From Candidatus Phelpsiimicrobium noxiivivens (GTDB lineage: Bacteria; Omnitrophota; Gorgyraeia; Velamenicoccales; Velamenicoccaceae), in assembly GCA_001873995.1 (NCBI GenBank), contig MNVR01000021.1, positions 1 to 64,000 of the forward strand: 64,000 nucleotides of DNA, given 5' to 3'. A program made the translations under genes and the position numbers. This document shows positions 6,557-63,077 of this stretch, piece after piece. Within the stretch, counting starts at the first letter, position 1, and each line of letters starts with the position of its first letter. Below the pieces are notes generated by a model. It saw nothing but the letters and a program-made list of their open reading frames with translations. It made no database searches and was not told the DNA's origin.

Positions 6557-6991
6557 TAGTTTATAGTTTATAGTATATAGGTTATAGTAGGACTAATTCT
6601 TAAGATAATTCCTATAACCATGCAACATCTTGGAAAGCTCTTCGCATCCTTGATAAAAAGTGTCAAATTCTGTTTTGTTAATATATTTTTGTTCTAAACA
6701 AATATATAGGATCGTAACAGCTTCGTATAAAGAACCTATCGATATGTGTATGAAACGGGATAGATCAACGTTTGATTTTCTGCCTTCTCCTTCAGCAATA
6801 TTCAAACTAATAGATACGGACGCCCTATTTAATTGACTAATCAATCCAAATTCTTCGTTTTTTGGAAATTTTTTTGTCAGAGAGTATATATCGCTGGCAA
6901 ATTTTACAGATTCTTTCCAGATGTTTAAGCTTTCAAATTTGAATGCCACGTTTCTATGTCCTATTAACTATACACCATATACTATAAACTA
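6557..6991. mobile_element. TTTATAG inverted-repeat cassette carrying a four-helix-bundle gene
   Basis: AT-rich arms built on TAGTTTATAGTATATAGG (6564-6581) and the inverted CCATATACTATAAACTA (6975-6991) surround a single small gene. The cassette lies between the LolA-like gene and the permease of one minus-strand operon. The right arm even supplies the TAG stop codon of the LolA-like gene. A gene-free copy with the same units lies at 37535-37613. No transposase is present. Confidence 0.55.
6593..6949 (-). CDS. four-helix-bundle protein, 23S intervening-sequence (S23) family
   Basis: The 118-residue protein matches the S23/four-helix-bundle family: FESLNIWKESVKFASDIYSL near the start, FPKNEEFGLISQLNRASVSI with SLNIAEGEGRK in the middle, and FIHISIGSLYEAVTI towards the end. 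Members were first seen in intervening sequences of 23S rRNA genes. Relatives related to Avd of diversity-generating retroelements are thought to bind nucleic acid. Here it is enclosed by inverted AT-rich repeats and splits an operon, as if carried on a small element. Biochemical role is unknown. Confidence 0.85.
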   Translation of the reverse strand: MAFKFESLNIWKESVKFASDIYSLTKKFPKNEEFGLISQLNRASVSISLNIAEGEGRKSNVDLSRFIHISIGSLYEAVTILYICLEQKYINKTEFDTFYQGCEELSKMLHGYRNYLKN

Positions 6992-7750
6992 CTTACTTCT
7001 CAAGTTTTGCAGGCTGAATACGCTGTCGTCAATGGGCTTATTATAGACGACTTTGTCGTCAACTTCAATTATGGTGGCGTGGCCTTGTTTGGCTTCTGAC
7101 TTCATCTCCCAATAAGTAGGTATAAAACGATCGGATATTTTTTTGACCCTGGAGTATTTGAGCGTTTTTATCAGTTTATCGCCCTTGCCGTAAAACTCAT
7201 CGCGCACCGGCGTAAAATCTTTTTTATTGATACGCATTATCCTTTTGTACCAGATAACGGCAGAGCCTGGTTTAGGCGTAAGCTCAATTACATATACATC
7301 CTGGCCATCAGAGTTTTCTTCCGCGAGCAGTTTGTGCGTGTAGTCGTTGACAATGCTCGCTTCTTTGACTAAGTCGTCGTTGGCAAAGTCTGAACCCATC
7401 CATGGCTGAAGCATCATTGAGGGAGGTATTTTTATTGTGCGCTCAACGCTGGGCAGGTAGTTCCACATCTCATTTTTTACGCGCAGGGTTGTCGTGTCTT
7501 TTTCTTTTGCGGGGGAGAGTATGCGGATAAACATCTTGTCGCGGCCGCGGCTTACGACATATAGCTCAAGGCGCCTCTCCCAGTTAGGCGTTATGATGGC
7601 CATGGTGTATTTGCCTTCCTGGGTGTCGCCTCTCATTAAGTCGTCAGAGTGTTTGACAATATCCTGCGGGGAAAGCTCTTGGCTAAATAAAAATGAAGGT
7701 AGCCATAATAGGAAGATAAAAATGGCATATACAAAAAGCGCCTTTTTCAT
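6989..7750 (-). CDS. LolA-like outer-membrane lipoprotein-sorting protein
   Basis: The 253-residue protein has a signal peptide (MKKALFVYAIFIFLLWLPSF, then LFSQE). A LolA-like half-barrel domain follows with LKVKNEMW-type strands, SPAKEKDTTTLRVKNEMWNY, a PPSMMLQPWMGSDFANDDLV segment, and KPGSAVIWYKRIMRI. This is the expanded LolA-like family often encoded beside MacB/LolCDE-type exporters. It probably shuttles a hydrophobic substrate across the periplasm. The start at 7750 is preferred over the ATG at 7759, because the latter overlaps the -10 box TATAAT (7763-7758) of a strong promoter. This makes the mRNA leaderless. The stop codon TAG lies inside the flanking repeat. Confidence 0.85.
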   Translation of the reverse strand: MKKALFVYAIFIFLLWLPSFLFSQELSPQDIVKHSDDLMRGDTQEGKYTMAIITPNWERRLELYVVSRGRDKMFIRILSPAKEKDTTTLRVKNEMWNYLPSVERTIKIPPSMMLQPWMGSDFANDDLVKEASIVNDYTHKLLAEENSDGQDVYVIELTPKPGSAVIWYKRIMRINKKDFTPVRDEFYGKGDKLIKTLKYSRVKKISDRFIPTYWEMKSEAKQGHATIIEVDDKVVYNKPIDDSVFSLQNLRSK

Positions 7751-7849: not shown

Positions 7850-8497
7850 ATGAGTGAATACACATTTAAAAAGATAGGATCAGAAGACGCCCTTGTTGAA
7901 GTTTTTCGCCTGCGCTTCCAGGTTTATTGTAAAGAGCGCAACTTTATCAAAGAGTCTGACTGTCCCTTCGGCTTTGAGACCGATGAACTTGATGAACATA
8001 GCGCGCACTTTGGCGCGTTTGATTTTTGCGGCCAGCTTGTAGGCGCTGTGCGTTTGATAAAGCCGATTGCTAATAAATTCCCAATTGAATATCTTTACCC
8101 AGATATAGTATTTGGTTCTTCGCTGCCTGACAGGGAAGAATGCGCCGAGATATCGCGGCTTACCATAAGTAAATTATATATGGGTAAGAATAAATCTGAT
8201 TTTAGCAATAGATCATGTATCCATGAAAAGCCGACGCTTTTTATCAGGCGCGTAAGCCCCATTGTTACAGGCCTTTGCGATGCCATGTATCAGGAATGCA
8301 GGGAGTCTGGTATCAATTATTGCCTTGCCCTTATGGAAAAACCTTTATGGCTTTTATTAAAACTGCATGGTTTTGTTTTTAGGCCGTTAGGCGGCGAGGT
8401 GGATGTATATGGAATGGTTACTCCGTATATTATTGATGTTATAGAACATGGCAAAAGAGGCGTATTGAAGCTCCCTGATCACTCCAGCCTTAGTTAG
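7850..8497 (+). CDS. N-acyl amino acid synthase-like acyltransferase (PEP-CTERM/exosortase-associated)
   Basis: This 215-residue GNAT-fold protein has the motif run FRLRFQVYCKERNFI, DELDEHSAHFGAFD, VGAVRLI and CAEISRLTISK. These are typical of the acyltransferases found with PEP-CTERM/exosortase systems and related to N-acyl amino acid synthases such as FeeM, which move a fatty acyl chain from ACP to an amino group. It is about half identical by eye to the next gene, so the pair arose by duplication. The ATG at 7850 gives an N-terminus aligned with its paralogue; upstream TTG 7808 lies in the -35 box and ATG 7838 is next to the -10 box. The acyl donor may come from the ligase/ACP fusion two genes downstream. 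Confidence 0.82.
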   Translation: MSEYTFKKIGSEDALVEVFRLRFQVYCKERNFIKESDCPFGFETDELDEHSAHFGAFDFCGQLVGAVRLIKPIANKFPIEYLYPDIVFGSSLPDREECAEISRLTISKLYMGKNKSDFSNRSCIHEKPTLFIRRVSPIVTGLCDAMYQECRESGINYCLALMEKPLWLLLKLHGFVFRPLGGEVDVYGMVTPYIIDVIEHGKRGVLKLPDHSSLS

Positions 8498-8503
8498 GCC
8501 CTT

Positions 8504-9205
8504 ATGGAAGAAAAATTTACGTTCAGAAAAATTGAGTCAAAAGAAGATATGATGGCTGTTTTTAAGCTGCGCTTCCAGGTCTATTGTAAAGAGTGCAACT
8601 TTATCAAAGAGTCGGATTGTCCCTCAGGCTTTGAGACCGATGAGCTTGATGAACACTGCGCGCACTTTGGCGCGTTTGACCAGGAGAACTTGCTTGTGGG
8701 TGGTGTTCGATTGATACTGCCATCCTGCGAAAAATTCCCTATTGAAGATCATTGCAAGGGATCGAATGTTGACTACAACGTGACTCCGCGCCAGCAGTGC
8801 GCCGAGATATCGCGGCTTACTATAAGCAAACTTTTCAGAAGAAGGGCGAATGACGGACTTTACTATGAACCGCAGACAGATGACCAGACAGTTGAAGACA
8901 AAGGTATGTATTTTATGCGCCGCGTGCGGCCTATGGCATTCGGGCTTTACCGCGCTATGTATCACGAGTCTAAGCGCATAGGCATTGATCATTGGTTCGC
9001 TGTTATGGAGCCAAAGCTATGGATGCTTTTAAAGATCCACGGGTTTATTTTTAAGCCCATTGGCGCGCCTGTTGATTTTTACGGCATGGTTACGCCTTAT
9101 ATGGTGAGCCTGACGGAACTTGAGCAGAACGTCTATTCCAAATTCCCGCAATTCTTCAGTTATTTCATGGAAAACCTTGAACCCGAACTGCAGCCAAAGT
9201 TTTAG
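8504..9205 (+). CDS. second N-acyl amino acid synthase-like acyltransferase
   Basis: The 233-residue paralogue of the preceding gene shares FKLRFQVYCKECNFIKESDC, ETDELDEHCAHFGAFD and QQCAEISRLTISKLF. It differs by an insertion (about residues 110-130: RRRANDGLYYEPQTDDQTVE) and a longer C-terminus ending in a predicted amphipathic helix. Two paralogues side by side suggest different amino-acid or acyl preferences, or a heteromer. It lies six bases after the first paralogue and one base before the ligase fusion, so all three are one transcription unit. Reaction is inferred from the family: acyl-ACP plus amine to N-acyl product. Confidence 0.82.
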   Translation: MEEKFTFRKIESKEDMMAVFKLRFQVYCKECNFIKESDCPSGFETDELDEHCAHFGAFDQENLLVGGVRLILPSCEKFPIEDHCKGSNVDYNVTPRQQCAEISRLTISKLFRRRANDGLYYEPQTDDQTVEDKGMYFMRRVRPMAFGLYRAMYHESKRIGIDHWFAVMEPKLWMLLKIHGFIFKPIGAPVDFYGMVTPYMVSLTELEQNVYSKFPQFFSYFMENLEPELQPKF

Positions 9206-17689: not shown

Positions 17690-17700
17690 TGAGACAGATC

Positions 17701-17735
17701 AATGAGACAAATCAAGCAGGATGATTTGTCTCATT
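17701..17735. repeat. GAGACAAATC palindrome, copy 2, at a convergent gene junction
   Basis: AATGAGACAAATCA (17701-17714) and its reverse complement (17722-17735) flank AGCAGGA. A partial unit GAGACAGATC precedes it. The palindrome overlaps the rpoN stop codon (17731-17733), so it would form the 3-prime hairpin of both convergent transcripts. Confidence 0.75.
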
Positions 17736-20041: not shown

Positions 20042-20048
20042 GGATTGA

Positions 20049-20165
20049 CTCCTTGCTAACCCGTTTGTAAATATTAAGTGCATTCACTTAATATTTACCG
20101 CGCTGGCTTCGGTGTTGGTTTTGCAGGGAATAGATACCCACAGTATTTAAAACCAAGGAGGTCGC
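20049..20165 (+). promoter_or_regulatory. family-1 structured RNA leader, copy A
   Basis: This is the cleanest copy of a recurring leader. CTCCTTG (20049-20055) can pair perfectly with CAAGGAG (20054-20060 plus 100, i.e. 20154-20160), which contains the Shine-Dalgarno. Between them are a 14-bp perfect hairpin (20067-20080 with 20085-20098) and a second domain in which GGTTTT (20117-20122) pairs with AAAACC (20149-20154) around the core GCAGGGAATAGATACCC. Other copies (36512, 37178, 59309) keep the core and change paired positions together. The arrangement suggests control of ribosome access to the small gene at 20166. Ligand or signal is unknown. Confidence 0.7.
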
Positions 20166-23601: not shown

Positions 23602-23789
23602 GAAACAGTTTCCAACCTATTCGGGAACCTATTCGGGAAACAGTTTCCGACCTATTCGGGACACTGTTTCCGATCTATTCGGGAAAGTGGGCTAGTTGGA
23701 AAGAAAAAATACCCACTGTCCCGAACAACTTGGAAACAGTTTCCCGAACAACATGGAAACAGTTTCCCGAATAGGTTGGAAACTGTTTC
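23602..23789. repeat. large inverted repeat built from AAACAGTTTCC / CCTATTCGGG units
   Basis: The left arm starts at 23602 with GAAACAGTTTCCAACCTATT and repeats CCTATTCGGG four times with AAACAGTTTCC-like units between. The right arm (to 23789) is the inverted counterpart, with CCCGAACAAC, CCCGAATAGG and GGAAACAGTTTCCC. The outer 25 or so bases of each arm match perfectly. The RNA would fold into one long hairpin between the DUF2156 and rmuC genes. No open frame of interest lies in it. Confidence 0.85.
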
Positions 23790-30981: not shown

Positions 30982-31542
30982 ATGAAAGAGATACGGATAC
31001 ACGCCCGGGCAGGCCAGGGGGCTATTACCACGGCCAGCATATTGGGTTACGCCTATTTTTCAAAAGGCCAATACCCTTACGCCTTTCCTCATTTTGGGGC
31101 TGCTCGCATGGGCGCGCCGATGAACGCGTTTGTGCGCATTGATGATAAGCCGGTGCGCTTAAGGAGCCAGGTCTACAATCCTGATTACCTTATTGTAGTT
31201 GACGCGACACTTATGCGCGGGTTTGACTGCTACGTGGGTTTTAAAGACGACGGCATAGCTATCGTGAATGAAAGGGAAGGGATCGAGATACCGCAGCCTC
31301 GCGGTAAGCAGAAGCTTTTTATGGTCCCGGCCGGCAAGATATCCACGGAGATCATGGGCAAAACACTTTTAGTAAACACTGTGCTTTTGGGAGCTTACGC
31401 GGCCGCTACAGGCGAACTGAAGCTTGAAGATATGATAAAGGCCATAAGCGATCGTTTCGGCGATAAGGGTAAGGCAATAGTGGACATGAACGTAGAGGCT
31501 ATTAAAAAAGGATACCAGTTTATAAAGGACACCCCGCGCTAA
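30982..31542 (+). CDS. porG: pyruvate/2-oxoacid:ferredoxin oxidoreductase, gamma subunit
   Basis: The 186-residue protein has the gamma-subunit signature: IRIHARAGQGAITTASILG, YPYAFPHFGAARMGAPMNAF and LLVNTVLLGAYAA. With the delta, alpha and beta genes that follow it forms a four-subunit PFOR-type complex that oxidises pyruvate (or a related 2-oxoacid) to acetyl-CoA and reduces ferredoxin. Its last codons (DTPR then TAA) are encoded by the conserved start of a family-2 leader element. The gene end and the next gene's control region therefore overlap. Confidence 0.93.
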   Translation: MKEIRIHARAGQGAITTASILGYAYFSKGQYPYAFPHFGAARMGAPMNAFVRIDDKPVRLRSQVYNPDYLIVVDATLMRGFDCYVGFKDDGIAIVNEREGIEIPQPRGKQKLFMVPAGKISTEIMGKTLLVNTVLLGAYAAATGELKLEDMIKAISDRFGDKGKAIVDMNVEAIKKGYQFIKDTPR

Positions 31543-31645
31543 GCGGCACCTGGCCCTTATAAGGAATTGGGCCAGTGTCCGCCCAGTGGCGAAATTGCGT
31601 CGGTGTTTCGCTAAATAAAACATTAAGGTGCTCAAGGAGGCAAAA
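31529..31645 (+). promoter_or_regulatory. family-2 RNA leader with nested second copy, upstream of porD
   Basis: The outer element starts ACACCCCGCGC-TAA (31529-31542) and resumes at AAATTGCG with GGTGT (about 31602-31615). An inner hairpin CAC-C-TGGCCC / GGGCCA-GTG (31547-31577) with the usual bulged C occupies the outer loop. The final TTGTGT/ACACAA hairpin of other copies is not evident. CAAGGAGG precedes the porD start. The element begins inside the end of porG. It looks like one copy inserted into the loop of another. Confidence 0.55.
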
Positions 31646-31897
31646 ATGGTCGGACATTTGACGTCAAAACCAGGTTCAAGCACGGCGAATAAAACAGGTT
31701 CCTGGCGCACGGAGGCTAAGCCAAAGTTTTTAAAGAAAAATTGTATTGCCTGTAAGATGTGCGTCCTTATCTGCCCTGAAGGCATTATTTCAGGCGAGGG
31801 CAAGAATACTTTTTATTGCGATTACGCCTATTGCAAGGGCTGTGGTAATTGCGCGGCGGTTTGCCCTAAAAAAGATATTGAGATGGTAAAGGAATAA
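31646..31897 (+). CDS. porD: 2-oxoacid:ferredoxin oxidoreductase, delta (ferredoxin) subunit
   Basis: The 83-residue protein carries two [4Fe-4S] motifs: CIACKMCVLICPEG and CKGCGNCAAVCPKK. It relays electrons from the catalytic core to ferredoxin. ATG 31646 is preceded by CAAGGAGG, so the longer frame from GTG 31628 is rejected. It is followed by a 150-base repeat rather than directly by the alpha-subunit gene. Confidence 0.93.
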   Translation: MVGHLTSKPGSSTANKTGSWRTEAKPKFLKKNCIACKMCVLICPEGIISGEGKNTFYCDYAYCKGCGNCAAVCPKKDIEMVKE

Positions 31898-32050: not shown

Positions 32051-33232
32051 ATGAAGCAATTTATTGAAGGTTCACACGCTGTTGCCGAGATAATAAAGTT
32101 GTGCAGGCCGGGTGTTGTATCAGCATATCCTATAACGCCGCAGACGCATATCGTGGAAGACTTAGCATTGATGGTTGCCAACAAAGAACTTAACGCGCAG
32201 TTCGTCAATGTTGAGAGTGAGCATTCCGCTGCCTCAGTAGTCTTGGGCGGAGAATCCACAGGCGTGCGTTCTTATACAGCTACAAGCTCACAGGGGCTTC
32301 TTCTTATGGCGGAGGTTGTTTTTAATATCGCTGGCTTAAGGCTGCCTTTGGTTATGACAACCGCGAACAGGGCCATATCAGCGCCTATAAATATTTGGAA
32401 TGACCAGCAGGACGTGATGACGGTCAGGGATTCGGGATGGGTCTTATTGTTCGCCGAGACCAATCAGGAGGCAGTAGACCTTCACGTGCAGGCATACAAG
32501 CTGGCTGAAGACAAGCGCGTAATGCTGCCTGTCATGGTAAATATGGACGGCTTTATTTTAACGCACGGTATGGAGGTTCTGGATATGCCGTCTCAGAAAG
32601 AAGTGGATAAATTCCTGCCGCCCTACAAGACTACTTATAAACTTGATGTTGAAAATCCGCTGACTATGGGTTATCTGGCGGACCCTGATTATTATTTAGA
32701 GATAAGGTATATGGTCCAGGATACACACAAGCAACTTTTGGATATAATCCCTCAGGTGGCTGATGATTTTAAAAAGGCGTTTAAAAGAGGCGAGGGTAAC
32801 GGTTTAGTTGAGGGCTATAAAATAGAAGACGCGGACCAGGTCTTTGTGGCCATGGGTTCTGTATGCGGCAGTATCCGCGATGTTGTTGACGATCTTAGGG
32901 CCAAGGGGAAGAAGGCAGGACTTTTAAAGGTCATTTCCTACAGGCCGTTCCCTAAGGCTTGCGTGGCAAGCGCTTTGGCTCGCGCTAAAGAGGTGGCTGT
33001 AATCGATAAGAGTATTTCTTTGGGCGCGTTTGGGCCTCTTTACACTGACGTCATGGTAGCGGTATCATCTTTAGGCTCAGAGATGCCTAAAATGAGCGGT
33101 TTTGTTTTAGGGTTGGGAGGCCGTGACATAACCAAAAGATCCATTATGGATACATACGAGAGATTGTTCGGTAAACAGGTTGATTGCGAATTTATCGGCT
33201 TAAAACAGGAATTACTCGTTGAGGATAAATGA
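32051..33232 (+). CDS. porA: 2-oxoacid:ferredoxin oxidoreductase, alpha subunit
   Basis: The 393-residue subunit has AEIIKLCRPGVVSAYPITPQ, the FVNVESEHSAASVVLGGEST pyrimidine-domain segment, SSQGLLLMAEVV, and a C-terminal KAGLLKVISYRPFP domain. This fits pyruvate-type alpha subunits. An AAGGAG site lies eight bases before the start, supplied by the edge of the upstream repeat region. Confidence 0.93.
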   Translation: MKQFIEGSHAVAEIIKLCRPGVVSAYPITPQTHIVEDLALMVANKELNAQFVNVESEHSAASVVLGGESTGVRSYTATSSQGLLLMAEVVFNIAGLRLPLVMTTANRAISAPINIWNDQQDVMTVRDSGWVLLFAETNQEAVDLHVQAYKLAEDKRVMLPVMVNMDGFILTHGMEVLDMPSQKEVDKFLPPYKTTYKLDVENPLTMGYLADPDYYLEIRYMVQDTHKQLLDIIPQVADDFKKAFKRGEGNGLVEGYKIEDADQVFVAMGSVCGSIRDVVDDLRAKGKKAGLLKVISYRPFPKACVASALARAKEVAVIDKSISLGAFGPLYTDVMVAVSSLGSEMPKMSGFVLGLGGRDITKRSIMDTYERLFGKQVDCEFIGLKQELLVEDK

Positions 33233-35315: not shown

Positions 35316-36532
35316 GTTGTGAATTAAAAAATAAGATATATTGGGTTGGGGCTGTGGATCATAACGTCCGTGATTTCCATGGTTATATTACGCCGAACGG
35401 GACTTCTTATAACTCGTATTTAATAGTGGATGATAAGATAACTTTGGTAGATACTGTAAAAAAGGAGTTTGCCGCGTGCCTCCTTGGCCACGTGTCCGAG
35501 ATCATAGACCCCGCGAAAATAGATTACCTTATAGTTAATCACGTGGAGATGGACCATTCGGGCTCGATCGTTGATATCTTAAAAGTTGCCAAGAACGCCA
35601 AGATATTCTGTTCGGCAAAAGGCAAGGAAGGGCTTTTAAAACATTACCAGATAACCGGCAGGGAATTCAATGTTGTTAAGACAGGTGATACGCTTTCTTT
35701 GGGTAAGCGCACGCTGAAGTTCATAACAGCGCCGATGATACATTGGCCGGATAGCATGTTCACTTATTGTGTTGAGGACAAAGTCCTTTTGCCTAATGAC
35801 GCTTTTGGCCAACACTTGGCTTCGCCTAAGCGTTTTGCCGATGAAGTAGGAGAAGCATATTGTATGGAGGAGAGCGCTAAATATTACGCGAACATCCTTA
35901 TGCCGTTGGGTTCCATCATCGCGAAGAAAATAGATGAGATAAAGAGCTTAGGTATCCCCATTGATATCATAGGCCCCAGCCATGGCGCTATATGGAGAAA
36001 TAATATACCGGCCCTTATAAATTCTTATATGGATTGGGCGGTTTTTAAAGCGAAAGAGAAAGTAGTTATCGTATATGACACCATGTGGGAGTCCACGGAT
36101 AAGCTCGCCCGCCGCCTGACAGAACTTATAAATTCCGCGGGTGTTGATGTAAAGCTATATAATATTCGTAGATCCGACGGCAGCGCTATTGTCAGGGATA
36201 TTTTAGACGCGAAGGTGTTTTTGGTAGGTTCCCCGACATTAAACGCGGATATGTTCTGGACGGTTGGAGGGTTTTTGACTTATCTTCGGGGCCTTAAGCC
36301 AAAAAATAAAAAGGTAGGCATATTTGGTTCTTACGGTTGGGCTGAAGGCGCTTCTAAGGCTATAAGAAAGGAGATAGAGGCAATGGGGCTTGAGGTGATA
36401 GAGCCGCCTTTTGAGGTCAATTTTGTTCCTAGCCGAGAGGAGTTGAGTAAATTAGAGGAATATGCTAAGGTAGTTGTTCAGGCGGTGAGGGCCATAGGAA
36501 AAAACACTGATCCCTTGCCAACCCGCTTGTAA
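35312..36532 (+). CDS. flavodiiron protein (oxygen/NO reductase, FprA type)
   Basis: The 406-residue protein has a metallo-beta-lactamase domain with diiron ligands (VNHVEMDHSG, and later histidines in MIHWPDSMFTY and GPSHGAIW). A flavodoxin domain (about 255-400) has VVIVYDTMWESTDKLAR and GSPTLNADMFWTVGGFL. It reduces O2 to water or NO to N2O with electrons from rubredoxin, encoded two genes upstream. The last six codons (PLPTRL, stop) coincide with the 5-prime end of the family-1 leader of the next gene. Confidence 0.94.
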   Translation: MSCELKNKIYWVGAVDHNVRDFHGYITPNGTSYNSYLIVDDKITLVDTVKKEFAACLLGHVSEIIDPAKIDYLIVNHVEMDHSGSIVDILKVAKNAKIFCSAKGKEGLLKHYQITGREFNVVKTGDTLSLGKRTLKFITAPMIHWPDSMFTYCVEDKVLLPNDAFGQHLASPKRFADEVGEAYCMEESAKYYANILMPLGSIIAKKIDEIKSLGIPIDIIGPSHGAIWRNNIPALINSYMDWAVFKAKEKVVIVYDTMWESTDKLARRLTELINSAGVDVKLYNIRRSDGSAIVRDILDAKVFLVGSPTLNADMFWTVGGFLTYLRGLKPKNKKVGIFGSYGWAEGASKAIRKEIEAMGLEVIEPPFEVNFVPSREELSKLEEYAKVVVQAVRAIGKNTDPLPTRL

Positions 36533-36640
36533 ATTTTAAGCTATCACGCGTAAAATTTACTACGTTGGTTTGTCTGCCGGCAGGCAGGCGCCTACGGCGG
36601 AAATTTTGCAGGGAATAAAAACTTACAGTATACGAAACTA
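36512..36640 (+). promoter_or_regulatory. family-1 structured RNA leader, copy B (with inserted palindrome)
   Basis: CCTTG (36513-36517), the hairpin GTAAATTTTA / TAAAATTTAC, and the core TTTTGCAGGGAATAAAAAC with ACAGTATAC are conserved. A GC-rich palindromic repeat (TCTGCCGGCAGGCAGG and following) is inserted between the hairpin and the core. The element begins within the last codons of the flavodiiron gene and runs straight into a family-2 leader. The CCTTG strand could pair with CAAGG (36685-36689) at the ribosome site. Confidence 0.6.
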
Positions 36641-36697
36641 ATACCCGGCGCTTTATGGTATCGCGCCGGTGTGTGTCTACTACACAAGGAGGTTGTT
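36641..36697 (+). promoter_or_regulatory. family-2 RNA leader of the ferritin-like gene
   Basis: TAC-C-CGGCGC (36643 onwards) pairs with GCGCCG-GTG with the constant bulged C. GTGTGT and ACACA form the second hairpin, which runs into CAAGGAGG and the ATG at 36698. It follows a family-1 leader in tandem, the only such case in the window. Confidence 0.65.
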
Positions 36698-37171
36698 ATG
36701 GGAGAGAGATTCAGAAAGACATCGGGAGTGGATCTGAAAGAGATCATCGCGGACTTAAACAAGGCTTACTGCGATGAGTGGTTGGCTTTTTACGCATATA
36801 CGTATGCCGCTCAGGCAGTATCGGGAAGCGCCTACGAGGATATGCAGGAGATGTTAGAGAAAATAGCTAAAGATGAATTGGAGCACCAGTCAGAAGCGGC
36901 CGACATGATCATTAAGCTCGGCGGGATGCCAACGGCCAATTTTAACGATATAGAGAAGAACGCGAACGCGCCATTCCCTATGCCTCCTAAAAAGACCGAT
37001 GATTATGAGAAGATCATTGGGTTCGTTTTGGCAGCTGAAGGCGGAGCCATTGAGGCTTACAGGAAGATAGCCAAGAAGACCTTAGGTAAAGAAGACGTTG
37101 TCTATCAGTTAGCGGCGCATATTTTAGGCGAAGAGGTTCAGCACGAAGAGATATTCGAGAACCTGAAATAA
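36698..37171 (+). CDS. ferritin-like/rubrerythrin-family diiron protein
   Basis: The 157-residue four-helix protein has diiron-ligand motifs CDEWLAFYAYTYAAQ, KDELEHQSEAADM and EEVQHEEIFENL. It lacks the rubredoxin tail of classical rubrerythrins and is nearer to bacterioferritin/ferritin-like short forms. It likely stores iron or reduces peroxide in the anaerobic oxygen-defence set with rubredoxin and the flavodiiron protein. ATG 36698 follows CAAGGAGG by five bases; the GTG at 36671 lies inside the leader and is rejected. Two structured leaders in tandem suggest tight control. Confidence 0.88.
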   Translation: MGERFRKTSGVDLKEIIADLNKAYCDEWLAFYAYTYAAQAVSGSAYEDMQEMLEKIAKDELEHQSEAADMIIKLGGMPTANFNDIEKNANAPFPMPPKKTDDYEKIIGFVLAAEGGAIEAYRKIAKKTLGKEDVVYQLAAHILGEEVQHEEIFENLK

Positions 37172-37177
37172 GGAATA

Positions 37178-37300
37178 CCCCTTGCGAAAACGCTTGTAAA
37201 TTTTTACACGACATATTTGTGTAATAATTTACTGCGCTCGCTTCGGGATTGATTTTGTAGGGAATAGAAACCTACAATATACAAAATCAAGGAGATAAAA
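37178..37300 (+). promoter_or_regulatory. family-1 structured RNA leader, copy C
   Basis: CCTTG (37180-37184) can pair with CAAGG (37288-37292) at the Shine-Dalgarno. Between them are CGC-TT-GTAAATTTTTACAC / GTGTAATAATTTAC-T-GCG, then GGCTTCGG-type linker, and GATTTTG / CAAAATC enclosing GTAGGGAATAGAAACCTAC. The paired arms differ from copies A and D by matching changes on both sides. Confidence 0.7.
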
Positions 37301-37491: not shown

Positions 37492-37528
37492 AAAAACCAC
37501 CTTCTTGTTAATAAGAGGGTGGTTTTTT
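37492..37528 (+). terminator. rho-independent terminator after ferredoxin
   Basis: AACCACCTTCTT pairs with AAGAGGGTGGTT, followed by a run of T. It ends the redox gene group. Confidence 0.85.
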
Positions 37529-37534
37529 GTTTTA

Positions 37535-37613
37535 GTTAATAGTGAATAGTTTATAGTAAATAGGATATAGGGAAAATAAGCTATAAACTATAAGCTATAA
37601 GCTATAAACTAAT
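37535..37613. repeat. TTTATAG repeat, gene-free copy
   Basis: AGTTAATAGTGAATAGTTTA on the left and repeated AAGCTATAAACTATAAGC units on the right form inverted arms of the same type as those around the four-helix-bundle gene at 6557-6991. It abuts the start codon of the radical SAM gene at 37615 and must contain or replace its ribosome site. Confidence 0.6.
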
Positions 37614-37614
37614 T

Positions 37615-38466
37615 ATGCTTCAAGCCCTTTACTATAAGAATATCGCAGGCGCTACCGTCCGATGTTTTCTTTGCCCGCGCTTTTGCGTGATCAATGATAA
37701 CAAGATAGGTTTTTGCGGTGTGCGGGCGAATAAGGGCGGTAAACTTTATGCCGCTAATTATGGCCGCGTTGCTTCTGTTGCCTTGGACCCTATAGAAAAA
37801 AAACCGCTTTACCACTTCCATCCGGGTTCTTTCATACTTTCCGCGGGGACTCTCGGGTGCAATCTTTCTTGTCTTTTTTGCCAAAATTGGAGTATCTCTA
37901 AAGAAATTCAGACGCCCACTGAGCCTATGGAGCCGCGGTCTTTAGTCAGCCGCGCGCTGAAATTAAATTCCTTTGGCATAGCCTATACATATAATGAGCC
38001 TTTTATCTGGTATGAATTTGTCTTAGAGACGGCGAAACTCGCAAAGGCCTCCGGCCTAAAGAATGTGCTTGTTACTAATGGTTATGTGAATCCGGAGCCG
38101 TTGGCTGAGCTCTTGCCATATATTGACGCGATGAACATTGACCTGAAATCTATCCGTGACGGATTTTACAAAAAGGTTTGCGCGGGTTCTGTCGGGCCTG
38201 TTTTAGAGACTATAAGTACTTCCGCAAAGAGTTGCCACGTTGAATTGACTAATTTGATAATTCCAACGCTGAACGATACAGAGGAAGAACTTACCGAGCT
38301 CGTAGATTGGATATATGATAACGTGGGTGAGTCTGTGCCATTGCATTTTTCAAGGTATTTTCCCTGCTACAAGATGAACCTTTCGCCAACACCGCTTTCT
38401 ACTCTGAAAAGAGCAGAAGAGATCGCCAGAAAAAAACTAAAATACGTTTATTTGGGGAATATTTAA
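37615..38466 (+). CDS. AmmeMemoRadiSam-type radical SAM enzyme (AmrS/PflA-like)
   Basis: The 283-residue protein has an N-terminal cysteine-rich segment (VRCFLCPRFCVINDNKIGFC), then the radical SAM motif CNLSCLFCQNW (about 82-89) and YTYNEPFIWYEF. It ends in a SAM-binding barrel with NIDLKSI and HFSRYFPCYKM. It belongs to the pyruvate-formate-lyase-activase-like subgroup seen with AMMECR1 and Memo proteins, though those partners are not in this window. The reaction is unknown. The start is immediately after an AT-rich repeat. Confidence 0.87.
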   Translation: MLQALYYKNIAGATVRCFLCPRFCVINDNKIGFCGVRANKGGKLYAANYGRVASVALDPIEKKPLYHFHPGSFILSAGTLGCNLSCLFCQNWSISKEIQTPTEPMEPRSLVSRALKLNSFGIAYTYNEPFIWYEFVLETAKLAKASGLKNVLVTNGYVNPEPLAELLPYIDAMNIDLKSIRDGFYKKVCAGSVGPVLETISTSAKSCHVELTNLIIPTLNDTEEELTELVDWIYDNVGESVPLHFSRYFPCYKMNLSPTPLSTLKRAEEIARKKLKYVYLGNI

Positions 38467-38473
38467 GTGGTTA

Positions 38474-38514
38474 TTGAATGAGACAAATCATCCTGCTTGA
38501 TTTGTCTCATTCAA
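38474..38514. repeat. GAGACAAATC palindrome, copy 3, at a convergent gene junction
   Basis: TTGAATGAGACAAATCA and TGATTTGTCTCATTCAA (17-bp arms) flank TCCTGCT. It lies exactly between the convergent radical SAM and SurA/PpiD genes and could act as a two-way 3-prime hairpin. Confidence 0.8.
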
Positions 38515-40052: not shown

Positions 40053-40943
40053 ATGGTAAAAAAAGAAGAGAAGAAATTAAAATTAGGCATACCCAAGGGG
40101 AGTTTAAGCGAAGCTACCATAAAGATGTTCGCCAAGGCGGGCTTTAACGTGGTTGTAAGCTCCCGTTCCTATATACCTGCCATTAATGACCCTGAGATAG
40201 AACTTATTATGCTCAGGGCCCAGGAAATGTCCCGTTATGTGGAAGACGGGGCGCTGGATTGTGGTATTACAGGCAACGATTGGATCTTGGAGAATAAGTC
40301 AGACGTCGCCAAGCTCGCTGATCTGGCCTACGCCAAACAGAGCATGAACCCTGTGCGTTGGGTCCTGGCCATACCTGATAATTCAGACATCAAATCCGTG
40401 AAAGATCTGGAGGGTAAAAGGATAGCCACTGAACTTGTTGAAGTCACAAAAGATTTTTTAAAGAAGAATAATGTTAAGGCTGATGTGGAGTTCAGCTGGG
40501 GCGCGACCGAGGTCAAGGTGGCGGTAAAGCTGGTTGACGCCATCGTTGAATTGACGGAGACGGGTTCAAGCCTGCGCGCGCATAATTTAAAAGAGATAAC
40601 TACTGTTTGCACTTCTACTACGCAGTTTATCGCTAACAAGAACGCCTGTAAGGACGTATGGAAGAAAAAGAAGATGGAACAGATAATACTTCTTTTAAAA
40701 GGCGCTATTGAGGCAGAAGGCAAGGTCGGGCTGAAAATGAACGTGCCGGCTGAAAAATTAGGCGGCCTGTTAAAGCTTTTGCCTGCTTTGAAAAATCCGA
40801 CAATCTCGAATTTGTCGGATAAGAAGTGGGCAGCCGTAGAGATCGTTGTTGAAGAGCGCCTGGTGCGCAAAATGATCCCGGAACTTAAAGAGGCAGGGGC
40901 TGAGGGCATTATTGAGTACGCTTTGAATAAGTTGATCTTGTAG
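40053..40943 (+). CDS. hisG: ATP phosphoribosyltransferase, long form
   Basis: The 296-residue enzyme has [20 protein letters not shown], the [12 protein letters not shown] segment, [18 protein letters not shown] and the PRPP-binding [16 protein letters not shown]. The C-terminal 75 or so residues form the regulatory ACT-like domain that allows histidine feedback. It catalyses the first step of histidine synthesis. No other his gene is nearby. ATG 40053 is chosen because upstream codons overlap the promoter. Confidence 0.93.
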
Positions 40944-40948
40944 GAGAT

Positions 40949-40972
40949 CTGCCTGCCGGCAGGCAGGAGTTA
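40949..40972. repeat. CTGCCTGCCGGCAGGCAG palindrome plus GAGTTAAG
   Basis: A perfect 18-base palindrome (40949-40966) is followed by GAGTTAAG. A near-identical unit precedes rpsR (49891-49916), and partial units lie at 36570 and 62890. Here it sits directly upstream of the ribosome site of a small basic-protein gene. Confidence 0.8.
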
Positions 40973-47656: not shown

Positions 47657-47661
47657 CGTAA

Positions 47662-47722
47662 ACACCCCGCGCTAATCGGAATTGCGCGGGTGTTGTGTCT
47701 TTCTACACAAGGAGATCATAAA
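47662..47722 (+). promoter_or_regulatory. family-2 RNA leader of rplY
   Basis: ACAC-C-CCGCGC (47662-47672) pairs with GCGCGG-GTGT (47684-47693), leaving one bulged C. The tip is AAT-CGGA-ATT. TTGTGT (47693-47698) and ACACAA (47705-47710) form a second hairpin that runs into AAGGAG. It is the type example together with 50346 and 61404. Confidence 0.75.
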
Positions 47723-48478
47723 ATGGCAGCTATTTATTTGGAATTATCGGTCCGCGAAGATGTTGAGATCGGCAAAAGCCATCTTCTGCGAAAACAAAAT
47801 ATTGTGCCGTGCGTCGTATACGGGGAAGGAAAAACGACTCTTCCGTTAAAGATAGACAGAGGGCATCTGGTCAAGTTCATGCACGCCCATCATGGCGGCG
47901 AGAATATGGTCATTACGCTTAAGGTCTTGTCTTCTAAGAGCAATCCGGCCCAGGAAAAAGCTGTTTTGATCAAAGAGATACAGAAGCATCCGGTGAGCGG
48001 TGATATTCTTCATGTTGATTTTAACGAGATATCCTTGACGAAGCGTATTGTTGTGAAAGTCCCTGTTTTAGGCAAAGGCGAGCCCGTAGGCGTTAAGCAG
48101 GAAGGCGGCTCGTTAGAGCATATCCTCTGGGAAGTAGAGGTGGAGTGTCTGCCTACGCAGATCCCTGAAAAATTAGAAATAGATGTAACGAATTTAAAGA
48201 TCGGTGATTCTATCACGGTTAAAGATCTTGTCGCGCCGGAAGGCGTAGTAATAAAACACGATGTTGAGGCATTGGTCTTTGTCGTTATGGCTCCCATGAA
48301 AGTGGAAGAGGTTGTTTCTGCTGAAGCAGCCGCTGGCGCTGAAGGCGCGGCCGGAGCGGAACCTGAAGTGATCAAGAAAGAAAAGAAACTCGTAGAAGGC
48401 GAAGAAGAAGCCAAGCCAAAAGATGAAGCCAAGGAGAAGGGCGGATCTAAAGGCAAAGGTGAACCCAAAGGCAAGTGA
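47723..48478 (+). CDS. rplY: 50S ribosomal protein bL25 (CTC family)
   Basis: The 251-residue protein has a bL25 N-terminal 5S rRNA-binding domain (VREDVEIGKSHLLRKQNIVP, VVYGEGKTTLPLKI) and the CTC-type C-terminal domain (LGKGEPVGVKQEGGSLEHIL, EIDVTNLKIGDSITV). It has a low-complexity alanine/glutamate/lysine tail. The long form is typical of most bacteria other than enterics. ATG 47723 follows AAGGAG; the ATG at 47690 lies inside the leader. It overlaps pth. Confidence 0.94.
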   Translation: MAAIYLELSVREDVEIGKSHLLRKQNIVPCVVYGEGKTTLPLKIDRGHLVKFMHAHHGGENMVITLKVLSSKSNPAQEKAVLIKEIQKHPVSGDILHVDFNEISLTKRIVVKVPVLGKGEPVGVKQEGGSLEHILWEVEVECLPTQIPEKLEIDVTNLKIGDSITVKDLVAPEGVVIKHDVEALVFVVMAPMKVEEVVSAEAAAGAEGAAGAEPEVIKKEKKLVEGEEEAKPKDEAKEKGGSKGKGEPKGK

Positions 48479-49399: not shown

Positions 49400-49858
49400 A
49401 TGGCGAATTTGAACAAAGTTCTTCTTATCGGCAATCTGACACGTGACCCGGAATTGCGCTATACGCCGGGTGGGACGGCTGTTGTAAATCTACGTATGGC
49501 TACGAACCGCCGCTATAAAGATAAGGCGGGCGAGGCCAAGCAGGATGTATGTTATATGACAGTGGTAGCTTGGGATAAGCAGGCTGAGGTGTGTAATCAG
49601 TATCTTCATAAAGGAAGCCCGCTTTTTGTGGAAGGCCGGCTTCAATCAAGGTCATGGGATGGGCCGGACGGCAAAAAGAGATCAGTCCTTGAGATCCGCG
49701 CTGAAAGAGTGCAATTTTTGGGCGCGCCTTCGTCAAAGGCTAACGCGGCCCCTGAAGACCATGCCGCTGTGAAGGAAGAAAAAGCGGCAGATGATGTTAT
49801 AAGCACCGGCCCCGATGAGGTGACGTGGGGCCAGGATGCGGCAGAGGGCGCGGGCTAA
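49400..49858 (+). CDS. ssb: single-stranded DNA-binding protein
   Basis: The 152-residue protein has an OB fold (LNKVLLIGNLTRDPELRYTP, VVNLRMATNRRYKD, FVEGRLQSRSWDGPDGKKRS) and an acidic disordered tail. The tail ends TWGQDAAEGAG rather than the usual DDDIPF-like tip, so the standard partner-binding end is missing or altered. GGGGG lies nine bases before the ATG. Confidence 0.93.
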   Translation: MANLNKVLLIGNLTRDPELRYTPGGTAVVNLRMATNRRYKDKAGEAKQDVCYMTVVAWDKQAEVCNQYLHKGSPLFVEGRLQSRSWDGPDGKKRSVLEIRAERVQFLGAPSSKANAAPEDHAAVKEEKAADDVISTGPDEVTWGQDAAEGAG

Positions 49859-49910
49859 CTTTGGAAGGAATAAAAACCTACAGTATGCAACCTGCCTGCT
49901 GGTAGGCAGG
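49858..49910 (+). promoter_or_regulatory. family-1 leader fragment plus GC palindrome upstream of rpsR
   Basis: TTTGGAAGGAATAAAAACCT (from 49858) and ACAGTATGCAA match the 3-prime core domain of family-1 leaders. The long hairpin and the 5-prime CCTTG are absent; ssb coding sequence lies there instead. The expected CAAGGAG end is replaced by the palindrome CCTGCCTGCTGGTAGGCAGG (49891-49910) and GAGTTAAG. Confidence 0.55.
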
Positions 49911-50345: not shown

Positions 50346-50403
50346 ACACCCGGCGCTAATCGGAATCGCGCCGGTGTTGTGTTTTTTACACAAGGGGTGC
50401 ATC
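50346..50403 (+). promoter_or_regulatory. family-2 RNA leader of rplI
   Basis: ACAC-C-CGGCGC (50346-50356) pairs with GCGCCG-GTGT, again with one bulged C. TTGTGT / ACACAA follows and abuts AAGGGG. Compared with the rplY copy, the C-G pairs of the stem are exchanged on both strands. Confidence 0.75.
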
Positions 50404-50850
50404 ATGCTTAAAGTAATTTTAAGAGAAGATGTAGCGGGCTTCGGAAAAGCCGGAGAGGTTAAGCAGGTAAAAGACGGTTTCGCGAGAAATTTTCTTTTTC
50501 CAAGGAAGCTGGCTTTGGCCGCTTCTGATGAGACTTTAAAACAGATAGAGCTGAACCAGAATAAGAAAAAGGCCAAAAAAGAGCTTGAGACAAAAAAGGC
50601 GCAAGAGGCTGCTCTCAGGTTGGCTGGTCTCTCGGTAACGATCACCGCTGAGGTGAATGAGGAAGAAAAACTTTATGGCAGCCTGAACGCCTCAGATATT
50701 GCCGCGGCCATAGCTGCTGAAGGCGTTGAAGTCAATAAGAAGGCGATAGTATTGGAGACACCCATAAAAGAGCTGGGTATTTACGATGTAGAGGTAAGGC
50801 TTCATCCCGAAGTGATTTCCAAGATCAAGGTCTGGGTCGTTAAGAAATAG
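50404..50850 (+). CDS. rplI: 50S ribosomal protein bL9
   Basis: The 148-residue protein has MLKVILREDVAGFGKAGEVK and VKDGFARNFLFPRKLALAAS, then a long central helix and a C-terminal domain with LYGSLNASDIAAAI and LHPEVISKIKVWVVKK. ATG 50404 is selected by the AAGGGG of the leader; the longer frame from 50374 lies inside the leader hairpin. Confidence 0.95.
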   Translation: MLKVILREDVAGFGKAGEVKQVKDGFARNFLFPRKLALAASDETLKQIELNQNKKKAKKELETKKAQEAALRLAGLSVTITAEVNEEEKLYGSLNASDIAAAIAAEGVEVNKKAIVLETPIKELGIYDVEVRLHPEVISKIKVWVVKK

Positions 50851-54640: not shown

Positions 54641-54663
54641 TCTAAGATAAGAAGTACCAGAAA

Positions 54664-54766
54664 CACCTGGCCATTATGGACACCCCGCGCTAATTTGAAT
54701 TGCGCGGGTGTGCGCTCGGTAGCGTAAATTAGGCCAGTGTTGTGTCTGCACACAAGGAGGAGTCAG
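54664..54766 (+). promoter_or_regulatory. family-2 RNA leader of skp, with a nested second copy
   Basis: An outer stem CAC-C-TGGCC (54664 onwards) / GGCCA-GTG encloses a complete inner element ACAC-C-CCGCGC / GCGCGG-GTGT (54680-54711) with tip AAT-TTGA-ATT. The TTGTGT / ACACAA hairpin and CAAGGAGG then follow. Both stems keep the bulged C. It is the clearest case of one copy sitting in the loop of another. Confidence 0.7.
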
Positions 54767-55306
54767 ATGTTCAAGAGAAGCGTGGTTTTGTCAGTGGTAA
54801 TATTGTTTTTAGCGATCTTTGGGCTTTCATTGAATGCCTATGCCGCGGGTAAGATGGGTTATGTTGACCTATCGTCTACTTTTGACAAGTATGAGAAGAC
54901 GAAAGTCTATGATGACGCCCTTTCTTCAGTTCAGAGCGTTAAGGAGAAAGAGTTAGAGCAGTTATCCAACGAAATAAAAGCTTTGGAAGATAAGATGTCT
55001 TTATTGAGCGAAAAAGAGAAGACGGCTAAAGGCCAGGAGCTGGAAGGTAAGAAAAAGCAATTGACCCAGATGAGCCAACAGGTAGCTTTGGACTTAAGAA
55101 AAGAGCGCGACGAGAAGCTCAAGGAGATCCTTCAGGATATAGAAAAGGTCGTTCAGTCTTACGCTCAGAAGAATGGTTATGATTTTATTTTTAATGACAG
55201 AGTACTTTTATATGGCGCGGCAAACGCGGACGTCACGCAGGATATCGTAGATCTATTGAACGGCGGATATAAGAATAAGCCCGCGGGAAAAGCCGGCAAA
55301 AAGTAA
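54767..55306 (+). CDS. OmpH/Skp-like periplasmic chaperone
   Basis: The 179-residue protein has a signal peptide (SVVLSVVILFLAIFGLSLNA, then YAAGK) and GKMGYVDLSSTFDKYEKTK. Two long coiled-coil tentacles (about 50-130) and a closing YAQKNGYDFIFND strand complete it. Skp holds unfolded outer-membrane proteins for BamA, encoded just upstream. ATG 54767 follows CAAGGAGG; the GTG at 54737 is inside the leader. Confidence 0.9.
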   Translation: MFKRSVVLSVVILFLAIFGLSLNAYAAGKMGYVDLSSTFDKYEKTKVYDDALSSVQSVKEKELEQLSNEIKALEDKMSLLSEKEKTAKGQELEGKKKQLTQMSQQVALDLRKERDEKLKEILQDIEKVVQSYAQKNGYDFIFNDRVLLYGAANADVTQDIVDLLNGGYKNKPAGKAGKK

Positions 55307-59254: not shown

Positions 59255-59308
59255 CTTGACAAACTCATGGAATGTATTTAGAATAAAAACTTGAAGATGA
59301 AAAGTTAT

Positions 59309-59431
59309 CCCTTGCCTATACGCTTGTAAATTTTAGCCCGGCGTACCCGGGCATAAAATTTACTGCGCAGGCTTCGGGATCAACTTTGCAGGGAATAAAT
59401 ACCTAATAATATACAAAGTTAAGGAGGCGGT
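59309..59431 (+). promoter_or_regulatory. family-1 structured RNA leader, copy D
   Basis: CCTT (59310-59313) can pair with AAGG (59421-59424). The hairpin GTAAATTTTA-GCCCGG / CCGGGC-A-TAAAATTTAC (59326-59363) is followed by GGCTTCGG, then AACTTTG (59382-59388) / CAAAGTT (59414-59420) enclosing GCAGGGAATAAATACC. The last stem differs from copies A and C at matched positions. AAGGAGG lies five bases before the ATG. Confidence 0.7.
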
Positions 59432-61403: not shown

Positions 61404-61463
61404 GCACCCGGCGCTAATCGGGATCGCGCCGGTGTTGTGTTTTCTACACAAGGGGGATGAGAT
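61404..61463 (+). promoter_or_regulatory. family-2 RNA leader of the coiled-coil protein gene
   Basis: CAC-C-CGGCGC (61405 onwards) / GCGCCG-GTG with bulged C, loop AAT-CGGG-ATC, then TTGTGT / ACACAA running into AAGGGGG. It begins directly after the receiver stop codon at 61401-61403. Confidence 0.75.
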
Positions 61464-61949
61464 ATGAAGACGGATAAGGTATTGGGTATTTTGGTGATCA
61501 TTGTTTTCATTCTACTGGGAGGAGCGTATGCTCAGTTCGTAGTACAGGAGCAGGCTACGGCAAAGAACATTCGCGGGCTCAATCGCAAGGTTGGCGATTT
61601 TGACGCTATTTTAAAAAAAATTGGATCTCAAGCCAAAGACAACGCTGATATTATAAAAAATATTGAAGATAAGGCCACGGCAAACGACGCGCGAAGCAGA
61701 GATGTAGCTTCTAAATTAGAGGAAATGGATAAAGATATACAACAGTTGCAAAATGATGTCAAAGAAGCGATCGCGTTGAAAGAAGTCAAGGTTTCGGCAG
61801 CACCTGCGGTAACGCCTGTGGCCGGATCGGTTCAATTGGCTCCGGCGGGTGGATCAACAGTATCAACAGAAGCCCAGACTGCACCGGCAGACACGGTAAT
61901 GCCGGCAGCAGAACGATCAACGGTTGAAGGGCAGGCATTGCAGCCATAA
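61464..61949 (+). CDS. membrane-anchored coiled-coil protein
   Basis: The 161-residue protein has an N-terminal membrane helix (VLGILVIIVFILLGGAYAQF), a coiled-coil of about 85 residues (LNRKVGDFDAILKKIGSQAK to LEEMDKDIQQLQNDVKEAIA), and a low-complexity alanine/proline/threonine tail. I recognise no family. It overlaps the next exported-protein gene by one base. Location between two receivers suggests a shared pathway, but nothing shows which. Confidence 0.7.
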   Translation: MKTDKVLGILVIIVFILLGGAYAQFVVQEQATAKNIRGLNRKVGDFDAILKKIGSQAKDNADIIKNIEDKATANDARSRDVASKLEEMDKDIQQLQNDVKEAIALKEVKVSAAPAVTPVAGSVQLAPAGGSTVSTEAQTAPADTVMPAAERSTVEGQALQP

Positions 61950-62825: not shown

Positions 62826-63077
62826 TGAGCCGCGAAGGACTCCGTTCGCCATTAAACCAATGGCGGACTAGAACCTGTCGTCGCTCGCTTACCTGCCTGC
62901 CGGCAGGCGCTCGGCTCCTCCCCAAAGGGGCTCTGCCCCTATGGCGCTCGCTGTGTTCGCTGTTACCCCGAGGGCGTGGGGACGGTCTCCCCACACCCCT
63001 TGGGTTCTCGTCCTGTATCTTTGATAATAAAGCCACACAAAAAACGTGTAGCTTCAAATATGAGCCGCGAAGGACTC
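62826..63077. repeat. direct repeat of the tRNA-Lys 3-prime end flanking a GC-rich insert
   Basis: TGAGCCGCGAAGGACTC occurs at 62826-62842 and again at 63061-63077, where it is the acceptor and T-arm part of tRNA-Lys (minus strand). The roughly 220 bases between hold palindromes (CCTGCCTGCCGGCAGG, CCCCAAAGGGG, GGGGACGGTCTCCCC) and no gene. It is the same pattern as at tRNA-Gln. Confidence 0.7.

Follow-up and report, generated by a model that had tools for sequence, protein, structure and literature searches.

REPs and REPINs are short, dispersed, extragenic palindromes that occur in tens of copies, in tandem or in clusters, and are often found between co-directional genes, near stop codons and transcribed in operons (PMC3733652, PMC3116915). 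The known REP superfamilies are defined by GTAG and CGTC tags (PMC3733652), and REPs of E. coli located no more than 15 nt from a stop codon cause ribosomes to stall and reduce translation (as summarised in PMC12306157). The Omnitrophota element described here is like these repeats in dispersal, copy number and genic setting, but it lacks both the GTAG/CGTC tag and linkage to a RAYT, is built of two different adjacent hairpins rather than of inverted REP doublets, and nests in its own loop. It also shares with the ribosomal-protein leader RNAs of Rfam the placement of a structured RNA directly 5' of ribosomal protein genes; it differs from them in having no Rfam match at gathering score and in preceding a wide range of unrelated genes, with antisense copies as well. 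A third comparison is with SDR5 of cyanobacteria, which Elhai and colleagues (Genome Research, 2008) reportedly described as very small structured mobile repeats. The differences from SDR5 are unrelated sequence and phylum and a shorter unit; we know of no SDR5 copies that abut a Shine-Dalgarno (SD) sequence.

Drawing on a repeat family whose structure, positions, uninterrupted orthologous sites, nesting and tandem copy-number change were observed directly, we propose that the element, which measures about 46 bp and joins two adjacent imperfect palindromes, is probably a REP/MITE-like mobile repeat of Omnitrophota that is non-autonomous and palindromic.

Two-hairpin copies in the window

The window, by which we mean the whole 64,000-nucleotide stretch that was analysed, contains six copies of the element directly 5' of start codons, each consisting of a hairpin with a bulged C (hp1) followed by a second hairpin (hp2). 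The initial annotation had placed such copies before porD, a ferritin-like gene, rplY, rplI, skp and a gene starting at 61464, and all six were found there. Its gene identities have Pfam support in five cases, but the 61464 gene is without a Pfam match. Its observation that hp2 abuts the SD in five copies also holds. Features are listed below, with scores from the covariance-model (CM) search.

31529..31606, + strand: compound copy before the porD-like gene, outer ACACCCCGCGCTAAGCGG...AATTGCGTCGGTGT plus inner unit (sequence, fold)
31547..31592, + strand: inner unit of the porD leader, CACCTGGCCC...GGGCCAGTG plus a CCGCC/GGCG hairpin (CM match 31542-31599)
31646..31897, + strand: PorD-like 4Fe-4S ferredoxin subunit gene, ATG at 31646 (Pfam Fer4)
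32051-33232: porA-like gene downstream of the porD-like gene (Pfam POR_N)
36641..36686, + strand: hp1 and hp2 of the ferritin-like copy (CM 69.4 bits), then SD AGGAGG
36698..37171, + strand: ferritin-like protein gene (Pfam PF00210)
47662..47693, + strand: hp1 of the rplY copy, ACAC-C(bulge)-CCGCGC-loop-GCGCGG-GTGT (sequence, stem scan, fold)
47693..47710, + strand: hp2 of the rplY copy, TTGTGT/ACACAA, with SD GGAG at 47711-47714 at spacing 0
47723..48478, + strand: rplY, ribosomal protein L25/TL5, ATG at 47723 (Pfam PF01386, PF14693)
50346..50393, + strand: hp1 and hp2 of the rplI copy (CM 82.5 bits), SD GGGG at 50394-50397
50404..50850, + strand: rplI, ribosomal protein L9 (Pfam PF01281/PF03948)
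54663..54755, + strand: compound skp copy, outer hp1 ACACCTGGCC...GGCCAGTGT whose loop holds a complete inner unit (sequence, fold)
54680..54725, + strand: inner unit of the skp leader, hp1 CCGCGC/GCGCGG plus hp2 GCGCT/AGCGT (CM matches)
54767..55306, + strand: skp/OmpH-like chaperone gene (Pfam PF03938)
61404..61451, + strand: hp1 and hp2 of the copy before the 61464 gene (CM 82.1 bits), then SD GGGGG
61464..61949, + strand: gene of unassigned function, 161 aa (no Pfam match)

The rplY copy, whose sequence from 47662 begins ACACCCCGCGC, was matched by the CM at 47658-47716 with 81.3 bits, and its hp1 has a predicted fold of -20.5 kcal/mol with a z-score of -3.05, the lower end of the range for window copies (-1.5 to -3.05). 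The skp copy has a complete second unit within its outer hp1 (TGGCC/GGCCA), with a nested fold of -38 kcal/mol, and its outer hp2 (TTGTGT/ACACAA) is followed by SD GGAGG. The porD leader has the same layout, the GG and AATT of its outer loop flanking the inner unit, but its minimum-energy fold does not contain the outer hairpin. Repeat finding aligned the window copies with one another, and a strict scan for CAC-C-stem-loop-stem-GTG returned five matches in the window, all on the + strand, compared with a total of four in 20 dinucleotide-model shuffles. An Rfam search of the window yielded three tRNAs only, and no family matched any copy of the element at gathering score.

The bulged C, described earlier as constant, is present in 65/66 and 44/47 copies of two copy sets. 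The compensating stem changes that had been noted among window copies are borne out on a larger scale, both stems covarying strongly: hp1 and hp2 are each 96.8% paired (n=64 copies), 12 of 15 pairs have changed on both sides, and the covariation score was reached by none of 500 shuffles; hp1/hp2 covariation was seen again in other families. The AAT-tetraloop-ATT tip is not supported as a helix, given a pairing rate of only about 71% and a first pair that fails to form in 30/64 copies; the tip of hp1 is a conserved sequence, GGAATTG.

The initial annotation further argued that conserved shape with changing sequence indicates RNA function. Shape is indeed kept while sequence changes, but G-U wobbles are rare in the stems and no more frequent than A-C, their reverse-strand equivalent: upper-stem hp1 and hp2 cells comprise 647 Watson-Crick, 8 G-U and 8 A-C in set A2, and 499 Watson-Crick, 2 G-U and 1 A-C in set A3. 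In structured RNAs, G-U pairs are usually clearly more frequent. The near absence of G-U intermediates means that covariation alone does not prove that RNA is selected, and the parity of G-U with A-C suggests that the stems are maintained at the DNA level, by copying or palindrome correction; strong recent selection could also account for the scarcity of G-U pairs.

Several other repeats occupy the window. A second leader family (CCCTTGC..CGCTTGTAAATTTT...GCAGGGAATA.AAACCTACAGTAT), which also terminates at or near an SD, is located at 20047-20160, 36509-36641 (directly 5' of the two-hairpin element of the ferritin-like gene), 37176-37294, 49857-49886 and 59306-59425. Palindromes of CCTGCCTGCCGGCAGGCAGG type are found at 36563-36591, 40942-40970, 49890-49910 and 62882-62910, and in a relative, G230, such a palindrome has been inserted beside the hp2 of two-hairpin copies (L377, L385). 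Long intergenic A+T-rich palindromic repeats of TAGTTTATAGT type lie at 6557-6587, 6961-7004 and 37526-37624; similar long palindromes fill the cysK gap in genomes G004 and G007. Direct copies at 7857-8022 and 8514-8679, 81% identical and in adjacent ORFs, suggest a tandem gene duplication.

Copy number, context and occupied sites

A CM built from four window copies gave 49 matches at E <=1 in the 1.56-Mb genome, one built from 66 copies gave 58 at E <=0.5, and one without flanks gave 50 at E <=0.01. The element is a short palindromic extragenic repeat with 50-58 copies per 1.56 Mb, nearly all of them intergenic. Genomic copies were read from sequence stretches around the matches. Search model R3, used for searching only, comprised 30 trimmed units, six of which were adjusted by 1-2 bases to 47 columns. 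A covariance-model search across the phylum, as the initial annotation had proposed, matched 89 of 384 genomes at 1e-5, all in the class of the window, with one family being copy-rich, and an IUPAC pattern scan of 85k genomes returned only Omnitrophota titles among the matches listed. A viral origin was rejected after the same kind of scan of IMG/VR gave no match.

Automatic classification, in which a few assignments are doubtful (e.g. C34:9121, C2:48529) and a nested unit is scored separately from the unit around it, places 25 of the 58 matches in the window's genome among sense leaders, roughly half and half. Several of the remainder belong to compound leaders, as their inner units (skp, porD, lepB, argG, purE, htpX and a PilZ gene). 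Other copies run antisense to neighbouring genes; these are found at antisense stop codons or next to A-tracts that correspond to terminator T-tracts on the opposite strand. Sense leaders precede six ribosomal protein genes (rplY, rplI, rplL, rpsP, rpsH, rpsC) and genes for an EF-G-like protein (fusA-like GTPase), trigger factor, cysK, aroC, an AcrB-family transporter and a response regulator. Sense-upstream placement, by which the initial annotation wished its reading to be judged, differs between genomes: it applies to about half of the copies in the window's genome, to 11/20 in G230 and to 12/18 in G224, but to only about 1/40 of the copies sampled in Ca. Velamenicoccus archaeovorus, where by that measure the reading is refuted. 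One antisense copy in the window's genome (L031, G000:C18:18370-18426) has a CIRCE-like operator (TTAGCACTC-N9-GAGTGCTAA) on one side and a groES-like gene on the other; by contrast, three genomes of another genus have a sense copy that abuts the groES SD.

Orthologous leaders reveal patchy occupation. Before rplI, the element is present in one of eight family genomes, the window's genome being filled and seven genomes of the same family empty. Within that family only the window's genome (G000) carries it before cysK, where G002 and G005 have uninterrupted TTAAGGAGG; in family f4, 3/30 cysK loci are filled. A cysK paralogue in G035 has the element between stop codon and GGAGG. The protein-matched region of this paralogue (G035:C6:69695-70450) contains one in-frame TAG and may represent a decaying copy or an assembly error. 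Within a single genus, 3/20 readable groES leaders are filled, directly before AAGGAGGTG and in one case with a nested copy, the remaining groES leaders having no element or a different palindrome. This patchiness shows that the element is dispensable at any one gene. Most of these empty/filled comparisons span genera, and no insertion event within one species was caught.

In several genomes, hp1 loops contain whole further units, always placed between GG and AATT, and tandem arrays likewise occur in several genomes. The sister species G230 and G334, whose DNA is about 95% identical, have at least nine filled sites in common with well conserved elements, but differ in tandem copy number (L377/L427, L381/L438). 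AAG is found on both sides of many G230 and f4 copies and is absent from others, such that a target-site duplication is not consistent. Filled and empty sites, nesting and tandem change are together the picture of a mobile repeat with maintained hairpins.

We consider it improbable that the copies represent a cis-regulatory leader RNA, in which a trans-acting protein or ligand acting on the bulged-C hairpin would set translation or stability of a ribosomal, chaperone and redox regulon. Such a reading accords with copies that are in sense and stop exactly at the SD, with the strong stem covariation, with the ribosomal protein, fusA-like GTPase and trigger factor genes among the carriers, and with compensating hp2 changes at two orthologous leaders. 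Against it stand the mostly empty orthologues of rplI, cysK and groES, with retention across species seen only at the G230/G334 sites, a carrier set that extends to argG, purE, aroC, cysK, AcrB and PilZ, the sampled Ca. V. archaeovorus copies, nearly all of which are not leaders, the lack of a G-U excess, and unrelated palindromes that take the same SD-proximal place in relatives (G423 groES, G421 rpsF). A regulatory role of the element is conceivable but not supported, nor is there support for the growth- or stress-linked regulator suggested by the initial annotation, given that orthologues are usually without the element and carrier genes are diverse.

Placement at the Shine-Dalgarno sequence

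Of 47 leaders, 37 have no spacing between hp2 and SD and six have a single intervening base, and in two other genomes, sampled with an SD-free model, hp2 and SD are 0-3 nt apart at 21/33 loci. Beside the SD, hp2 is weaker, with 2.3 G-C pairs of 5 vs 3.7 elsewhere (p 1.6e-6) and a mean energy of -3.6 vs -5.9 kcal/mol. Either leaders with a strong hp2 have been purged, or SD-sited copies form a subfamily; we count the difference in favour of an effect at the RNA level. The upstream stop codon lies no more than about 5 nt from hp1 in 13/24 leaders of the window's genome.

It is conceivable, albeit rather unlikely in our estimation, that leader copies of mobile origin have been exapted as intercistronic hairpins and kept for their shape rather than for a specific binder, whereby they would block exonucleases, set a processing site or separate the translation of neighbouring genes. 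The closeness of stop codons to hp1, the weaker hp2 beside the SD, and the preservation of hp2 pairing where sister species differ by double changes (before two genes, one of them ribH-like) are in keeping with such a role, as is the effect on translation of E. coli REPs near stop codons (PMC12306157). Weighing against it, patchy presence shows the hairpin to be dispensable at any one gene, and double changes without G-U intermediates may stem from DNA-level palindrome correction. Such hairpins may affect operon mRNAs in a generic way. The conserved G230/G334 sites, the double hp2 changes and the weaker SD-side hp2 point to some selection on leader copies.

A further, tentative reading is that the SD itself is the preferred insertion target, the element being inserted in fixed orientation directly 5' of AAGGAG. 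We found no SD-targeting element in the literature, where thin coverage of subscription journals makes this weak evidence, and the Omnitrophota literature examined does not mention palindromes.

Mobilisation and proposed mode of spread

An ordinary REP moved by a RAYT (Y1 tyrosine transposase) would be palindromic, extragenic and present in about 50 copies, as the element is, and RAYT-like Y1_Tnp genes are available, three in the window's genome and 20 in six relatives. We nevertheless regard this origin as very improbable. At 21 of the 23 Y1_Tnp loci in these seven genomes there is no copy within about 1.5 kb on each side, the other two are near an unrelated leader copy, and those examined closely (L047, L048, L448) have other terminal repeats. 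GTAG and CGTC tags are rare at element ends (8 and 2 of 105 matches). Since none of the 23 loci has a Y1_Tnp gene flanked by the element, a RAYT/Y1 transposase was rejected as partner; no autonomous partner with the same ends was found among the Y1 transposases. With tags rare and RAYTs unlinked, the element appears to work like a REP or MITE, and membership in a described REP family is not supported.

Two other repeats of the window have counterparts at such loci. The repeat TTGAATGAGACAAATCAT..TGATTTGTCTCA at 195-230, 17698-17733 and 38474-38509 also flanks the Y1_Tnp (RAYT-like) gene G000:C27 (L048), and looks like a RAYT-mobilised REP family; at 23602-23787, a GAAACAGTTTCC..CCTATTCGGGA repeat cluster matches repeats around the Y1_Tnp gene G000:C30 (L047).

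As a mobile palindromic repeat, the element would spread through intergenic DNA, where its copies usually lie immediately 5' of a purine tract. This tract is either (i) an SD (AAGGAG), with the element in sense between one stop codon and the next start, or (ii) an A-tract, the T-tract of an opposite-strand terminator, with the element in antisense. A unit would also serve as target for another, inserted between the GG and AATT of its loop, and units would duplicate in tandem. We infer movement via a hairpin intermediate of single-stranded DNA, with an enzyme acting in trans. Within operons, the predicted outcome is a hairpin in the mRNA leader, with neither stop codon nor SD disrupted and with a weak hp2 prevailing beside the SD, and most leader copies would be tolerated passengers. 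Two dissimilar hairpins, self-nesting and zero distance to the SD are unusual features for a dispersed mobile palindrome.

Many leader-like hairpins of Omnitrophota would belong to this one repeat family, which serves as a warning that covariation and sense position before genes are insufficient by themselves to show a riboregulator. Ca. Velamenicoccus archaeovorus LiM (NZ_CP019384.1) carries copies and offers a complete genome and published metatranscriptome data. If SD abutment reflects selection, the copies provide a natural series of one hairpin before tens of genes, in which orthologous sites lacking the element serve as internal controls. If it reflects target choice, a mobile element is steered to translation start sites; each transposition would then install a ready hairpin leader with stop codon, SD and reading frame unbroken, and the translation of operon genes across the phylum could be rewired.
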